Translations under genes and position numbers: made by a program
Shown: positions 1 to 63,187 of the stretch, piece after piece
Layout of the letters: every line of letters starts with the position of its first letter
Position numbering within the stretch: position 1 is the first letter of the stretch
From: a virus
Strand: one strand, 5' to 3'
DNA length: 64,000 bases
Virus record (IMG/VR): IMGVR_UViG_3300046321_000098
Span: 18,012-82,011 of that record
The notes under the pieces: generated by a model
What the model saw: only the letters and a program-made list of their open reading frames with translations
What the model was told of the DNA's origin: nothing
The model's database searches: none

Positions 1-13
1 ATCTATAAATTAT

Positions 14-37
14 AGCCTCCTCGTGAGGCTTTATTTT
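14..37 (+). terminator. Rho-independent terminator before the tape measure gene
   Basis: AGCCTC and GAGGCT form a 6-bp stem around a 5-base loop, followed by TTATTTT. It would end transcription from the gene lying left of the window, or attenuate readthrough into the tape measure gene at 85. Confidence 0.7.
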
Positions 38-84
38 CAAATATCAATCATCTGGTATTTCAAAATAATGACAGGATAAAAGAA

Positions 85-3000
85 ATGTTTGAACTCTCCT
101 CCCTAAAGTTTAACGTAAACACAGAAAAGCTCAAAGAAGCTATCGAGATGGTAGATGAATTAGGCACGTCTGTTAACAAACTTAAAACACCCCTAAAAGG
201 TTTAGAGACAGCGGCAACAACAGCAGGTGATGCTGTTGTTAAAGGAGCAGGTGCAGGGACAACCGCACTGCAGAAACAGACAAAACAAACGGACATGATG
301 GGTCACGCTGTAGAACGCTTTTATAAAGAGAAAGAAAAAGCAGCAAAAGCAGACGAGATTGTTCAGAAACGCAGTCAAAGTATTCTTGAGAAACAGGTAT
401 CCGTCCTCAGTATTATGGGCGACGGTTGGTCAAAAGGTCAAGCAGGTGTTCTTGCCGCAGCTCAGGCTGCTGGTATAGCTAACAATGAGTTTCAGAAACT
501 AAAAGACACACTGGCTTCCCAAAGAAGACTTGTTGGTGGTGATCCATTTGACAAAAGTGCAAGCGGTCTTGTTGGTTTGAAACAAGGTCTAGGAGAGGCT
601 CGTGAAGGCTACCGTCAACTCACAGTTTACGAAAAAGAATACGCAAGATTAAAAGCGGAGGGCAATGGTGTAGAGATGCGACTGGTTGCCCTTAATCGTA
701 AAGAAACTGACAGTCTGTATCGTGACAAGCAACGAATGATTGAGCAATACAAAATGCTCAAAACAGCTCAGTTTGACTCTAGCGACACTGCGATGATTGA
801 GAAGCAAAAGAACGCTTACAAGGACTTAGTATCTAATGTTAAGAACCTCGAAAATACATACAAAGAAGTAGCCACTGCCAAGCGCCCACTGGATAATATT
901 CGCACAGTTGATGCGACGAAACGCCGCGACCAGTTAAACTACATTGCTCGTGGCACTTCCGTACAATTAGGTGATATTGGTGTCTCACTAGCAGGTGGTC
1001 AGAATCCTATCACTGTAGCGATCCAACAATTTGACCAGTTGCGTAGTATTCTTGGTGGTGTTGGCAACGACACCAAGGCTATGCAGGAAGTGATGCAAAA
1101 TGCATTCACCCAAATTGTGCAGGGATTTGCATACGTTGCAACTGCAATGGGGCAGTTTGTTGTTGGTGCTGTTGTCAATACATCAAAGGCACTTCTAACA
1201 TTCGCAAGCGACATCACAGGTACAACCTATGTTTTAGCAACTTTACGCAAAGCCTTGGTTAGTCTTTCAGGTAGTGAAGCATCAGGTGTTGTTAAAACCT
1301 TTGACAGCATAGGTAAAGTTATTGTAGGAATCTCAGCTACACTCGTAGCATCACTCACCGTAGGTTTAATCGGCGTAGCCCTAGCCTACAAAGAAATCAT
1401 CCAGACATCTCAAGACCTCTCAGTAGCTCTTGCAATGTCAGGCGGTGCAATCGCCATCAACAAAGACGAAGCCTTAAAAATGTCAGCAGCACTGGCAAGT
1501 ACATCAGGCACGTCTATGCAAGTCGTAGGTGTTATCACTGAGATTGCTAAAGCAGGTAACTTAGGTAAAGACTCAATAGCTGGTATCACCAAAGCCTCTT
1601 TGGACTTGCAAAAGTACGGTGGTATTGCTGTTAAAGACACAGTGGCTTTGTACGCTAAATTAGCTGATGACCCTGTAAAGGGTTTGACTGAACTCGCCTT
1701 GAAAACAGGTGATGTATCTCAAGCGACTCTTGACCATATTGGAAAACTTGTTGCACAAGGCGACTCCGTTAATGCGGTGACATTAGCCATTGAAGAGATG
1801 AACCGTGTGAATGGTTTAGCTTCACAGCAAATGCTTGCTGATATGAGTCCATTAGAAGTGCTCTGGTCTGAAATGAAAGGTCAATTAACCTCTTTGAAAG
1901 AAGAGTTTTACGCGATAGCAGGTTCATCTGAACTTGTTAACGTCTTTGCAACAGCTTGGAGAACTGTTTCTGTAATGGTGTCCGAAGTTTGGTTTGTAAT
2001 TAAAGGTGTAGGTAAAGAGATAGGCGGTTTAGCTGCACAATTAGGTGCTCTTGCATCTGGAGATTTCAAAGGCGCTTCCAACATCAGAGGCATGATGGTA
2101 GAGGACGCTAAAGCAGCAAGAACGGCACAAGATGCGTTAACTAAATCTATTGTAGAAGGAACAAGTTCAAGGTCTAGTGCAGAAAAGCAGTACATCAACG
2201 TAATGCAAGCTGGTGCTATTGTTCGCCGTGAAATGACTGAAGCTGATAAAGCTCAGAATATCGCAGGAATCAAAGCAGGAGAATCTTTAAAGAAAGAAGC
2301 TGAAAAATACAACAACGTATCTAACCTAGATGGTGCAGGACGTGAAAAAGCTAAACAAGCGGCAATAGATAAAGTGCGTAAGTTAACCGTAGAAAGTATG
2401 AAAGCTCATGGTGCTGATGTTGTAGCCATTGAGAAAAAATTAGCTGAAACTACAGCAAACATTGAGGAGCAGTACAAGCCTAAGAAAGAAAAGTCCAATT
2501 CGTCAGGTATTAACGACTCAATTAAAGCAGAACAAAAGACAATTGAGGATGCCCGTAAAGGTATTCAGCGAAGTGCAAACATGCAAATGGACGCACTTAA
2601 CAGCTTGCACAAACGTGAGTTAGTTAATGATGTTGATTTCTTTAATCAGAAGTTCCTGATTGAAAAAGAAAGCATCGACAACTCCATTGATCTACTCAAG
2701 CAAGAGCAATCTATTGCAAGCAAGAAAAAGAATAGCCTAGCAGAAGTACAAGCCTTCCAAGGCAAGATAAGGGACGAGCAGGATAAGCTCAAGGACAAAG
2801 AATTAGAACGTAACTATGCCTTGCTGGACTTACAAGACAAGCTCGCTAAGGCTAGTATCAAAGCGTCCTTGACTGAAATAACAGCACTGCAAGAAAAGAA
2901 CAAAGCTCAAAAGTTAGACAACGAATTGATCGGTTTAACTATTCAAGAGACTCAAGCCTTGAAAGCAGTAAGAGCAGACAGTGTTATTGCTTTACAAGCA

Positions 3001-42944: not shown

Positions 42945-43150
42945 TTTTGAATAATTCAGGCGTAAGCCAATTGGTACTAGGGCTAATGGCTAAGGTGATT
43001 TCACCTTTTGCAAGTAAAGAACCAAAGACGTATAACAACCGTAATATGTTAACTAGCTCAGATGAAGTGATTACAGCGCATAATAGCTCTGTTGAGACTC
43101 GTCAAGTAAAGCGAAGTACAGAACGCTTAAACAAGAAATTGGGTAAGTAA
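42941..43150 (+). CDS. Hypothetical protein, 69 aa
   Basis: ATG 42941 with RBS aaaaaggagaaag (an upstream ATG at 42920 lacks one). Polar, with SVETRQVKRSTERLNKKL. Unrecognised. Confidence 0.55.
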   Translation: MILNNSGVSQLVLGLMAKVISPFASKEPKTYNNRNMLTSSDEVITAHNSSVETRQVKRSTERLNKKLGK

Positions 43151-43308
43151 TCTTTCTGAGGTGTTTTCGTAAGAGGGCATCTTGGAAAGAAAATTTGAAA
43201 ATCTTGTAGCTATTTTGTAAAGATTTCAGAAATTTTACAGGATTTTTGGTGACATTCTGAAAATTATGTGGATAATTTATAGGTATTTTGAATAATTTAG
43301 GAGATTTT
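43151..43308 (+). other. AT-rich intergenic region with a perfect DnaA box
   Basis: TGTGGATAA at 43267-43275 is the exact complement of the E. coli consensus TTATCCACA, in a very AT-rich 158-bp gap. No clear promoter hexamers. May be a DnaA-binding or replication element. Confidence 0.4.
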
Positions 43309-43962: not shown

Positions 43963-44037
43963 ACGCCTATAGCTCAATGGACAGAGCCTCAACCTTCTAA
44001 GTTGATTATCCAAGTTCGATTCTTGGTAGGTGTACCA
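43963..44037 (+). tRNA. tRNA-Arg(UCU)
   Basis: Acceptor ACGCCTA/TAGGTGT, D-stem GCTC/GAGC, anticodon stem TCAAC/GTTGA with loop CTTCTAA (anticodon TCT), T-arm CCAAG-TTCGATT-CTTGG, ACCA encoded. Reads AGA, a frequent codon in this AT-rich genome. Confidence 0.93.
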
Positions 44038-50045: not shown

Positions 50046-50643
50046 GTCATAAAGCATAGCATCAATCATAAATTATCGTTGCATATCATAGGGTTACAGC
50101 CCTTAGATATTTTAAAATCGTTATGAATTAGAGGACAGGGGGCGGAGGTTCTCATCAAGCACCACTTCCATACATCATCCCCAATTAATGAAACAATCAT
50201 AGTATTGAATCAATTCAGCATTCTTACTACAGCCTAAACAATCTTATTACAGCCCTACCTATATAATAACCCATCTCAAAGGACAGCTAGGAAGGCTTTA
50301 ACAGCCCTACAGCGTGTTTAAAAGACCTAGGCATATCAGTGCCTAATAAAGCATTATAAAGCGTCCCAGAGGGTTTTAATCCTTACAAGGTAAACAAAGC
50401 TCCTCGTCTCTACCGAGACTCGTCGCCACACTCGCTCACCGCCTATCGTCGGTTCGCTCATGCCCAAGGTTTAGTTGTCCTTGTCCCAGATATATTCCCC
50501 AGATGGAATAAAACCCCAAGGTCTTAAACAAGCCTTGTAAAATTTTAAAAAAGGTAGAATCTGTAAAACACGTCTGGTGTTGAGTGAACATCATGTATTG
50601 ATACAACCTCAAGGCTTGTCAGTAGATAAAGGATGGTAGAGGT

Positions 50644-50880
50644 TCATGCTTCGCATGAGATTAGACACAACCTGTCCTACGGACATCTTTTACACATTAC
50701 TATATAGATATTTTTATAACAAAAAGATTCTTTATAACACATATTAAAATAGTGTTTTCTATACAAAAGATAGTAAAATATATTTTCTTTAGGTGTGTTA
50801 CAACTTCGTGCATAGCACGAGGCATTGATAAATCTTCGATGTTTCACATCGAGTCTTGACTCAACCCAGCTCTACGAGCT
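50644..50880. repeat. Cluster of five short tri-loop hairpins
   Basis: TCATGC-TTC-GCATGA (50644), TGTCC-TAC-GGACA (50673), TCGTGC-ATA-GCACGA (50806), TCGATGT-TTC-ACATCGA (50836), AGCTC-TAC-GAGCT (50868). All stems are perfect and all loops are 3 bases, but sequences differ. Not followed by T-runs. Confidence 0.65.
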
Positions 50881-51264
50881 ATTTTGCACCAACTCAAGGT
50901 TGAATACAAGGAGATTAAATTTGTAGTTTCTTTCATTCTTTTGGTTGGGAGAAGGAGAAATTTGTAGTTAGGAGAGAGAATACCTTAACAAACATTAAGG
51001 ATTAGTTTTCTCTACTTAGGTGCGAACGGATCGTGTCTACGCCACATCTTTATTACACTTGTTAGTAAGTACTAACATTTAGTTACACCTTAGATGGTGC
51101 GGTGAGCATCCATCTATTGATACATCCTTGAGTCTTTTCTAGGTCTTACCAGTGAGGTTTATCTGTATTCTTTTCTCTTTAGGGAAGAGTGCTCTAAGTC
51201 CTTGATTTAAAACACTATTTCACCTAAACATTTTGCACGGTTGCAAAATCTTTTGAGATTAACC

Positions 51265-54490: not shown

Positions 54491-55240
54491 CTAGTTACTG
54501 TACGCCTTGATTACAACCTTAACAAATTCACTACGCTGTACGTCTTCTACATCAAACTGATGATAAGCACAGTTAGGATATTTCGCTACCATATCACCAT
54601 CGTAGTCCTTAAAGAACCGAGGTATCAAATCCCTGAGAGCATTACGTCCCTTGGAGTTCGCATACATCTGTGAATTGTCACCACAGACTACAACCTTAGA
54701 GTCCAATCCTACACGCTCAAGAAGGAGTTTAAGAATCAGTGGAGACATTTGTTGTGCTTCATCAATAAGAAGCAAGGTATTGTCCAAGGTAGCTCCAAGC
54801 ATGAAGTTAGGAATCTTAAAGTGAATCCTATGATTCAAATCAGTCTCAACCTTACCTTTAGTCAATAACTGCTCTAGAAGATTCTTTGTACTCTCAAAAT
54901 GAGGCTCAAGCTTAGAGTTCAGATCAGAAGGTAAAAACCCTACATCATCCAGTCCAGCTTGCACAGGTGTACGTACAATCATAATCTGCTTTGTACTATC
55001 TGCAATGTACTCTTTTACAAAACTATACAGGACACTAAGGGACTTTCCTGTTCCAGCGGGAGCTTCACACACTACCAAGTCATTCTCAATAATCTTATTT
55101 CTAAGGGTATTCTGTGATTCTGTTAGTGTAAAATTATGAATCCCGTAAGCTTCTTGCCACTGTTGTTTAGGTATTGACTTGACTCCGCGAGTAAAAGACT
55201 CTTCTTTGTCTTTACGTGCAAACTTTGATTTTTGTTTCAT
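54491..55240 (-). CDS. phoH: PhoH-like ATPase
   Basis: 249 residues. Walker A CEAPAGTGKSLSV (residues about 58-70), QIMIVRTPVQAG, NTLLLIDEAQQMSPLILK (Walker B) and VVVCGDNSQMY are diagnostic of PhoH. Function in phages is unclear; RNA metabolism or stress has been suggested. RBS gaaaggga. Directly downstream of the structured RNA region and upstream of the ClpP-like gene. Confidence 0.92.
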   Translation of the reverse strand: MKQKSKFARKDKEESFTRGVKSIPKQQWQEAYGIHNFTLTESQNTLRNKIIENDLVVCEAPAGTGKSLSVLYSFVKEYIADSTKQIMIVRTPVQAGLDDVGFLPSDLNSKLEPHFESTKNLLEQLLTKGKVETDLNHRIHFKIPNFMLGATLDNTLLLIDEAQQMSPLILKLLLERVGLDSKVVVCGDNSQMYANSKGRNALRDLIPRFFKDYDGDMVAKYPNCAYHQFDVEDVQRSEFVKVVIKAYSN

Positions 55241-55254
55241 ATTCCCTTTCAGAT

Positions 55255-55711
55255 TTAAAAATAAAAAAGCCCATAGAATACTACAGGCTCAATGCAACCA
55301 AGGGAAGGTTGCTAACTGGATTAGCAGCAAGAACTACTAATCTGCTTTCTAATAAAGAAGCAAGGTGCTGCCCTCAGACTTAACAGCATGTTAGACTAAG
55401 CCACTCAGGAAGGAATCTTTCACTTCCCTTCCATATTTGCTCCAACTTTGCTCACGATGGAGCTGGTCTACCGCACCCCGCAGCCACATTCAAAACACCG
55501 ACTGTTAATCTGCCGATACTAGGGCGGAAAAAGAAAGACCCCGAGAGCACAGTTCAATTTGCTATCGAGGCCTAGGCAGTCTGTTAGAAACTACGACACC
55601 ATTTTTTTAAAATGGTTGAAAGCAACACCAACCGCGCTAACGATTGGTGCAACTGGAGGTTAAAGTGGGTCTACCGAACCAGATCGACGCACTCTACCTT
55701 TAATTAGGGTT
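55255..55711 (-). ncRNA. Highly structured non-coding RNA region, about 450 nt
   Basis: No ORF. Reverse-strand hairpins (forward coordinates): CACCAA/TTGGTG 55626-55649, ACCATTTT/AAAATGGT 55598-55616, GCTCCA/TGGAGC 55439-55463, GGAAGGAA/TTCCCTTCC 55408-55432, TGCTG/CAGCA 55366-55388, GATTAG/CTAATC 55319-55342, GCAACC/GGTTGC 55294-55312. It ends with AGCC/GGCT (55268-55289) and a reverse T6 tract. A reverse promoter TTGAGA-N17-TATATA (forward 55742 down to 55719) would start it near 55711. GGTCTACCG occurs twice (55449 and 55663). RNA identity unknown; not a tRNA or rRNA. Confidence 0.6.
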
Positions 55712-55759
55712 TGTCAAGTATATAATTCCCTAACTTTGGGTTCTCAAATCCCCTGTTAT

Positions 55760-56035
55760 TTACTTCTGCCTCTTTCGTCCGTCTACTTTTTCCACTTTTA
55801 CAGGTGTTTCGACAGCTTCTGTAACCGAAGTAGGTACAGCCTCTGCTGCTGAATCAGCTTGAGCAGGAAACATTGTAAGCAAGTGCAGACTACCCAGTAC
55901 CTGCGGAGAACCGAGGTTAGTATTCAAATCCAATTTATAACCATCATGCACAGCTTGTACAACTAATGGGAGCATTTCTATAAGGGACATTGTGGCGATA
56001 CTTAACGTACCATCCTGATTGACTGTTATTGCCAT
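55760..56035 (-). CDS. Hypothetical protein, 91 aa
   Basis: MAITVNQDGTLSIATMSLIE then MLPLVVQAVHDGYKLDLNTN. Ala/Val/Glu-rich basic-ended C-terminus. Strong promoter upstream at 56069. Unrecognised. Confidence 0.6.
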   Translation of the reverse strand: MAITVNQDGTLSIATMSLIEMLPLVVQAVHDGYKLDLNTNLGSPQVLGSLHLLTMFPAQADSAAEAVPTSVTEAVETPVKVEKVDGRKRQK

Positions 56036-62247: not shown

Positions 62248-62322
62248 AGCGGGATAGCTGTTGGTTGCACAGCAAGGCTCATAATCTTGTGTACGGACGT
62301 TCGATTCGTCCTCCCGCTTCCA
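62248..62322 (+). tRNA. tRNA-Met(CAU)
   Basis: Acceptor AGCGGGA/TCCCGCT, D-stem GCTG/CAGC, anticodon stem CAAGG/TCTTG with loop CTCATAA, T-arm GGACG-TTCGATT-CGTCC, TCCA encoded. A1-U72 excludes the initiator. Could be a CAU tRNA-Ile2 if lysidine-modified; the discriminator is U rather than the usual A. Confidence 0.88.
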
Positions 62323-62506: not shown

Positions 62507-62582
62507 TACTTGGTAGCTCAATTGGCAGAGCACTAGCCTCCAAAGTTAGTGGTTCTAGGTTCAATTCCTAGTCGAGTAGCCA
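62507..62582 (+). tRNA. tRNA-Trp(CCA)
   Basis: Acceptor TACTTGG/TCGAGTA with discriminator G, D-stem GCTC/GAGC, anticodon stem CTAGC/GTTAG with loop CTCCAAA, T-arm CTAGG-TTCAATT-CCTAG, CCA encoded. Confidence 0.92.
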
Positions 62583-63111: not shown

Positions 63112-63187
63112 GCTCTTGTAACTCAATTGGTAGAGTGCCAACCTTGTAAGTTGGAAGTAATGGGTTCGAAACCTGTCGGGAGCACCA
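63112..63187 (+). tRNA. tRNA-Thr(UGU)
   Basis: Acceptor GCTCTTG/CGGGAGC (two G-U pairs), D-stem ACTC/GAGT, anticodon stem CCAAC/GTTGG with loop CTTGTAA, T-arm ATGGG-TTCGAAA-CCTGT, ACCA encoded. Confidence 0.9.

Follow-up and report, generated by a model that had tools for sequence, protein, structure and literature searches.

The 519-nt gap between a small 91-aa gene and phoH contains, on the minus strand, a predicted structured RNA (55694-55267) built as a chain of 13 local hairpins, which lacks an ORF and is closed by a terminator-like stem directly ahead of phoH. The window, that is the whole 64,000-nt stretch of DNA analysed here, is part of a virus record of 82,011 bases. The prediction of a terminator-ended structured RNA on the minus strand before phoH is well supported by the folding statistics, and the reading that we tentatively prefer is that of a phage noncoding RNA (ncRNA) which also gates read-through into phoH and clpP.

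The strength of folding was assessed against shuffled sequences, as the preliminary description of this region had proposed. A 501-nt segment of the minus strand gave a predicted energy of -167.5 kcal/mol as compared to -139.7 ± 6.5 kcal/mol for the shuffles (z -4.3), and it lay below all 100 of them. For 55694-55256 the z values of the minus and plus strands were -4.8 and -1.9, and with the pairing span restricted to at most 60 nt they were -5.2 and -2.8, respectively. The window was also scanned in segments of 440 nt (636 overlapping segments, both strands, 16 shuffles each). The minus-strand segment starting at 55256 ranked first of the 636 by its energy excess over shuffles, with an excess of 39.7 kcal/mol against a scan mean of 1.5 (sd 7.3) and 29.4 for the next segment; its z value was -7.7, the next best being -5.4 among the top 15 by excess. 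The fold of the minus strand contains 22 G-U pairs and that of the plus strand only 9, hence we take the minus strand to be the RNA strand. The longest minus-strand ORF within the structured RNA is 32 aa. These results bear out the preliminary description, which had placed an ORF-free structured RNA of about 450 nt on this strand upstream of phoH.

In a finer scan with 200-nt segments, 521 of 1278 were scored across the window, followed by all 476 over 40-64 kb. In the latter range the best piece of the RNA came second of 476, with a strong hairpin at 43.1 kb ranking above it. This hairpin (43150-43190, plus strand) has 18 bp and a 4-nt loop and directly follows a 76-aa ORF; the 200-nt piece containing it had a z of -7.8, the lowest of the 476, and 191 nt refolded around it gave -4.9. 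Between convergent genes at 50640-51120 on the plus strand there is another noncoding stretch that is structured (z -5.0); it has many short hairpins carrying TTCG- or TACG-type loops and no Rfam match.

Eleven of the 13 successive hairpins have at least 6 bp. Eight hairpins combine at least 6 bp with -6 kcal/mol or better; among 100 shuffles the average was 4.0 and the highest count 8. Read along the minus strand, hairpin 1 (55694-55663; 11 bp with bulges) contains the first copy of GGTAGACC, and is followed by hairpin 2 (55654-55621; 14 bp, -17.6 kcal/mol), hairpin 3 (55616-55598; 8 bp), hairpin 4 (55594-55576; 7 bp) and hairpin 5 (55573-55536; 13 bp, -16.8 kcal/mol). A weakly structured middle stretch (55535-55464) carries the second GGTAGACC at 55465-55473. 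Beyond it lie a 9-bp hairpin with a GGAAGG/CCTTCC stem (55435-55405), two hairpins of 7 bp each (55388-55366 and 55362-55343), one of 10 bp (55342-55319; -11.2 kcal/mol) and one of 6 bp (55312-55294). The chain ends in the terminator-like hairpin with its T-rich tail (55290-55257), whose 10-bp stem at 55290-55267 has a predicted energy of -12.2 kcal/mol.

This stem is directly followed by TTTTATTTTT and ends at 55267, 26 nt before the phoH ATG at 55240. In a fold of the entire leader together with the phoH start, nine of its ten pairs have a predicted probability of 0.94-1.0. A scan for terminator-like sites found one, against 1.7 expected by chance per 2 kb; since this count is not above chance, the case for a terminator rests on the position and quality of the stem. 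A promoter cannot fit between 55267 and 55240, and therefore phoH would have to be transcribed through the hairpin array and past the terminator.

Two candidates correspond to the promoter that had been proposed at the other end, and both are weak. One, TTGACA-15-TAGAGT at 55717-55689 on the minus strand, matches the consensus at 10 of 12 positions with a 15-nt spacer, and the other, TTGAGA-19-TATACT at 55747, is likewise near the 5' end of the RNA. The sole full-consensus promoter found, TTGACA-16-TATAAT with a TG (56096-56069, minus strand), lies ahead of the 91-aa gene and points in the same direction as the structured RNA.

The motif said to be repeated about 210 bp apart fared less well. 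GGTCTACCG does occur in exactly two copies in the window, both in the structured stretch and 203 nt apart, but the pair forms a 12-of-13 direct repeat and 5 of 30 shuffles contained a direct repeat as good, so that we gave this 13-nt repeat no weight. Scanning viral contigs for two copies of GGTAGACC about 200 nt apart returned 37 stretches, many with spacings that were multiples of three, and none of the 37 aligned with the RNA of the window. As paired copies elsewhere lay in unrelated DNA, the GGTAGACC pair is no signature of this RNA.

The gene context was then compared with that of related phages, which were collected through PhoH similarity. The structured RNA is preceded by the 91-aa gene (56035-55760, minus strand), the counterpart of the relatives' small gene near phoH according to hhalign (probability 92.5, E 4.9e-7 against seven relatives' proteins); a search for a close relative of this protein found none. 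Directly 3' of the terminator lies phoH (55240-54491, minus strand; 249 aa, phrog_170, E 1.2e-55), followed by a ClpP-like protease gene (54474-53734, minus strand; phrog_1827, E 4.1e-48) and a DNA methyltransferase gene. In ten relatives (loci L001, L040-L046, L048 and L050, with the ORFs chosen by the analyst) the gap 5' of phoH measures 15, 21, 25, 35, 65, 65, 71, 71, 72 and 138 nt, the gene directly before phoH being another small gene in some of them. Compared with these 15-138 nt, the gap of 519 nt means that the phage of the window carries about 400 nt extra.

By our reading of the folds, five of the ten relatives (L001, L040, L043, L046 and L048) have a clear hairpin in the gap between the small gene and phoH. 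This, together with the position of the RNA immediately 5' of the phoH ribosome-binding site, would agree with a purely cis-acting leader of phoH-clpP, in which an overgrown intercistronic hairpin serves attenuation, processing or mRNA stability. Such a leader could act by hiding the phoH start, an idea that was rejected, since 388 of 500 shuffled leaders bound the start at least as well as the real one, and 203 of 208 control start regions bound the leader better than that of phoH did. No competing antiterminator helix was seen in the predicted ensemble of the leader with the phoH start. In the absence of both excess start-site pairing and an antiterminator helix, a switch-like attenuator is not supported; moreover, the twelve further hairpins far exceed what attenuation needs. 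We consider a role purely in cis to be distinctly unlikely.

The preferred reading, a terminator-ended ncRNA that also gates read-through, would involve the following steps. Minus-strand transcription would start at the promoter of the small-gene operon (56096) or at the weak promoter near 55717 and would give an RNA of about 430 nt, which the intrinsic terminator would end 26 nt before phoH. The terminated product may be stable, resist nucleases and accumulate, with a smaller share of the polymerases reading through into phoH-clpP, so that every phoH transcript would have crossed the hairpin array and the terminator. One element could in this way yield a structured RNA and at the same time determine how much PhoH and protease is made.

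It is also conceivable, though we regard it as rather unlikely, that the RNA comes from an ncRNA gene which has a promoter and a terminator of its own, acts purely in trans and stands before phoH only incidentally, phoH being left to leaky read-through. The promoter-like TTGACA at 55717 and the terminator at 55290-55257 do frame the hairpins, and one group of RNAs in related phages (family A, described below) has promoters of its own, with a terminator-like hairpin and T tract in one member. Against this, the candidate at 55717 has a 15-nt spacer and a poor -10 box, and the region has its strong promoter ahead of the 91-aa gene.

We searched for homologues of the RNA at the levels of sequence and structure. 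No Rfam family reached the gathering threshold for the structured RNA, so the covariance search suggested in the preliminary description did not name it; at E values up to 10, the 751 nt of 55100-55850 gave five sub-threshold matches, none of them to GOLLD or ROOL. A nucleotide search of phage and plasmid records returned no homologue, in collections that may omit the very near records of this genome. Neither blastn nor nhmmer matched the RNA in 21 PhoH-related loci, and blastn against 13 related records gave only two matches, both of chance size (E 0.7-0.8). When 23 sources and 15 records were searched with a covariance model of the first 159 nt, the window itself was the sole match. Bacterial genomes scanned for PhoH yielded a single distant locus. 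Among the titles and abstract openings of open-licence PubMed Central papers, no description of this RNA was found. Since no homologue was found, the structure rests on one sequence, without compensatory changes. The RNA appears to be a real, unclassified singleton which fits no known RNA family.

This isolation, and the presence of about 400 nt extra where relatives have a short gap, would also fit a DNA-level or neutral feature, that is, a hairpin-rich insert or relic which folds without any role as RNA. The same phage does have another hairpin-rich noncoding stretch, that at 50.6-51.1 kb (z -5.0). However, the two strands fold unequally well (z -4.8 as compared to -1.9) and the minus-strand fold has more G-U pairs, both of which point to RNA; flanking repeats or inverted repeats were not found in the stretch searched. 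We therefore hold this explanation to be improbable.

The closest named phage by PhoH (54% identity) is Curvibacter phage P26059A, which was isolated on a freshwater bacterium of the Comamonadaceae according to its report (PMC5964084); the main text of that paper contains neither "noncoding" nor "non-coding" nor "intergenic". This phage (locus L040) and some of the other relatives carry structured RNAs near phoH that fall into two families, neither of which is named by Rfam.

Family A lies upstream of the block of small gene and phoH in L040 (4506 to about 3760, minus strand) and L048 (4377 to about 3640, minus strand), which are 73% identical; L047 is near-identical to L040. A model trained on the 5' 162 nt of L040 and L048 (R3) finds a further RNA in L041 (3571-4145, plus strand; E 3e-14) and, with a weaker match, a candidate in L043 (about 240-800, plus strand; E 0.014), which is probably a member. 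The folds of these two had z values of -3.7 and -4.7, respectively. Promoters of family A match the consensus at 11-12 of 12 positions, and the L041 RNA has a terminator-like hairpin with a T tract. In the alignment, 14 of 39 pairs have changed on both sides and none of 500 shuffles reaches any of the measures, although the pair counts come from a four-sequence alignment fitted to the model and so lean that way; sliding the pairing partners destroys the covariation signal.

Family B consists of conserved, leader-like RNAs of 250 nt in L042 (3818-3553), L044 (3440-3190) and L126 (5602-5352), all on the minus strand. They begin at TTCGGTA, 4-5 nt after the -10 box, and folding gave z values of -6.3 for L042 and -2.4 for L044. 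Their alignment holds three sequences, and the covariance model of this family (R2) has 251 positions. The L042 RNA continues into a reading frame whose match to HNH_3 is weak (E 7e-4, under the Pfam cut-off). Separately, L044 contains a partial group I intron (1-178, minus strand; RF00028, 60 bits) at the edge of the fetched piece.

The RNA of the window was assigned to neither family. Model R3 had no match in the window at E values up to 10 (up to 1 in one run), and R2 had none in the window or in its own record. Pairwise alignment did not reveal a diverged member either, since of 200 shuffles 27 were as good for L042, 109 for L044, 105 for L040, 116 for L048 and 87 for L041. The lowest value in these comparisons, 6 of 200, was obtained with the reverse complement of L041, and after several tests we count it as chance.

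Like the RNA of the window, that of family A is long, structured and noncoding and lies 5' of the small gene-phoH block, but it has its own strong promoter and another sequence and fold. Family B shares with it the TTCGGTA start soon after a TTGACA box, but is distinguished by a closing helix, TTCGG/CGAGG by our reading, and by running into the putative HNH endonuclease gene in L042. The order TTGACA and then TTCGGTA, 28-37 nt later (33 nt in the window; the pattern tested set the distance at 35-45 nt after the TTGACA box), is found on the minus strand at 55717-55672 in the window, at 3847 in L042, at 3470 in L044 and at 3737 in L041, where it is antisense to the family A RNA. The 120 fetched loci (about 1 Mb with duplicates) contain one further, unrelated occurrence, and 0.4 would be expected in 17 related loci (174 kb, the window excluded). 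The arrangement is thus common to phages whose downstream RNAs do not align, and because it was tested after the pattern had been seen, we regard it as weak evidence.

Long ncRNAs seem to be at home near phoH, since P26059A, L048 and L041 have a different structured RNA there, led by a promoter. A bolder proposal is that the RNA of the window represents a new class of phage structured ncRNA without kinship to any described family, abundant in infection and trans-acting, in a hot spot beside phoH where phages swap large ncRNAs, those of related phages being different and likewise undescribed; we think this unlikely at present. Should such neighbourhoods indeed swap these RNAs, the functions of long phage RNAs could be sought in the phoH block of freshwater betaproteobacterial phages. 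An unclassified structured RNA is added from a little-sampled phage group, along with two more unclassified families near the same genes, one of them showing strong covariation. Since homologues exist for families A and B and, for A, covariation as well, these are better placed for follow-up, and the isolate P26059A, which carries family A, offers a culturable test system.

Among known systems, GOLLD and ROOL are large structured RNAs of phages and prophages which are striking and functionally unexplained, and ROOL forms a homo-octameric nanocage of RNA only. Both are described as phage RNAs of unknown function that are often near tRNA islands, with GOLLD members often exceeding 800 nt (PMC12286853). 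The RNA of the window is like them in being phage-encoded, hundreds of nt long and dense in stems, and the preliminary description had been reminded of both. A large, phage-borne RNA with many stems could belong to GOLLD or ROOL, or be a divergent relative of theirs, and form an RNA-only multimer. This likeness is not supported on closer comparison: at about 430 nt the RNA is shorter than GOLLD, it has mostly local hairpins in place of a long-range ornate fold, and it has no covariance-model match in Rfam. Proximity to tRNA islands is frequent and not strict for GOLLD, and the tRNA gene nearest to our RNA, at 62248, is 6.5 kb away. Such membership is in our view extremely improbable. The window has four phage tRNA genes in all, namely Arg(tct) at 43963, Met(cat) at 62248, Trp(cca) at 62507 and Thr(tgt) at 63112.

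The other comparison is with two features of phage operons, terminator-gated leaders and intercistronic hairpin regions, in which a terminator stands just before the start codon and read-through decides the expression of the next gene. The RNA of the window differs from these in its twelve extra hairpins, and neither an antiterminator nor start-site sequestration was found for it; what it shares with them is a terminator immediately upstream of a gene, with the stem ending at 55267 and the phoH ATG at 55240.
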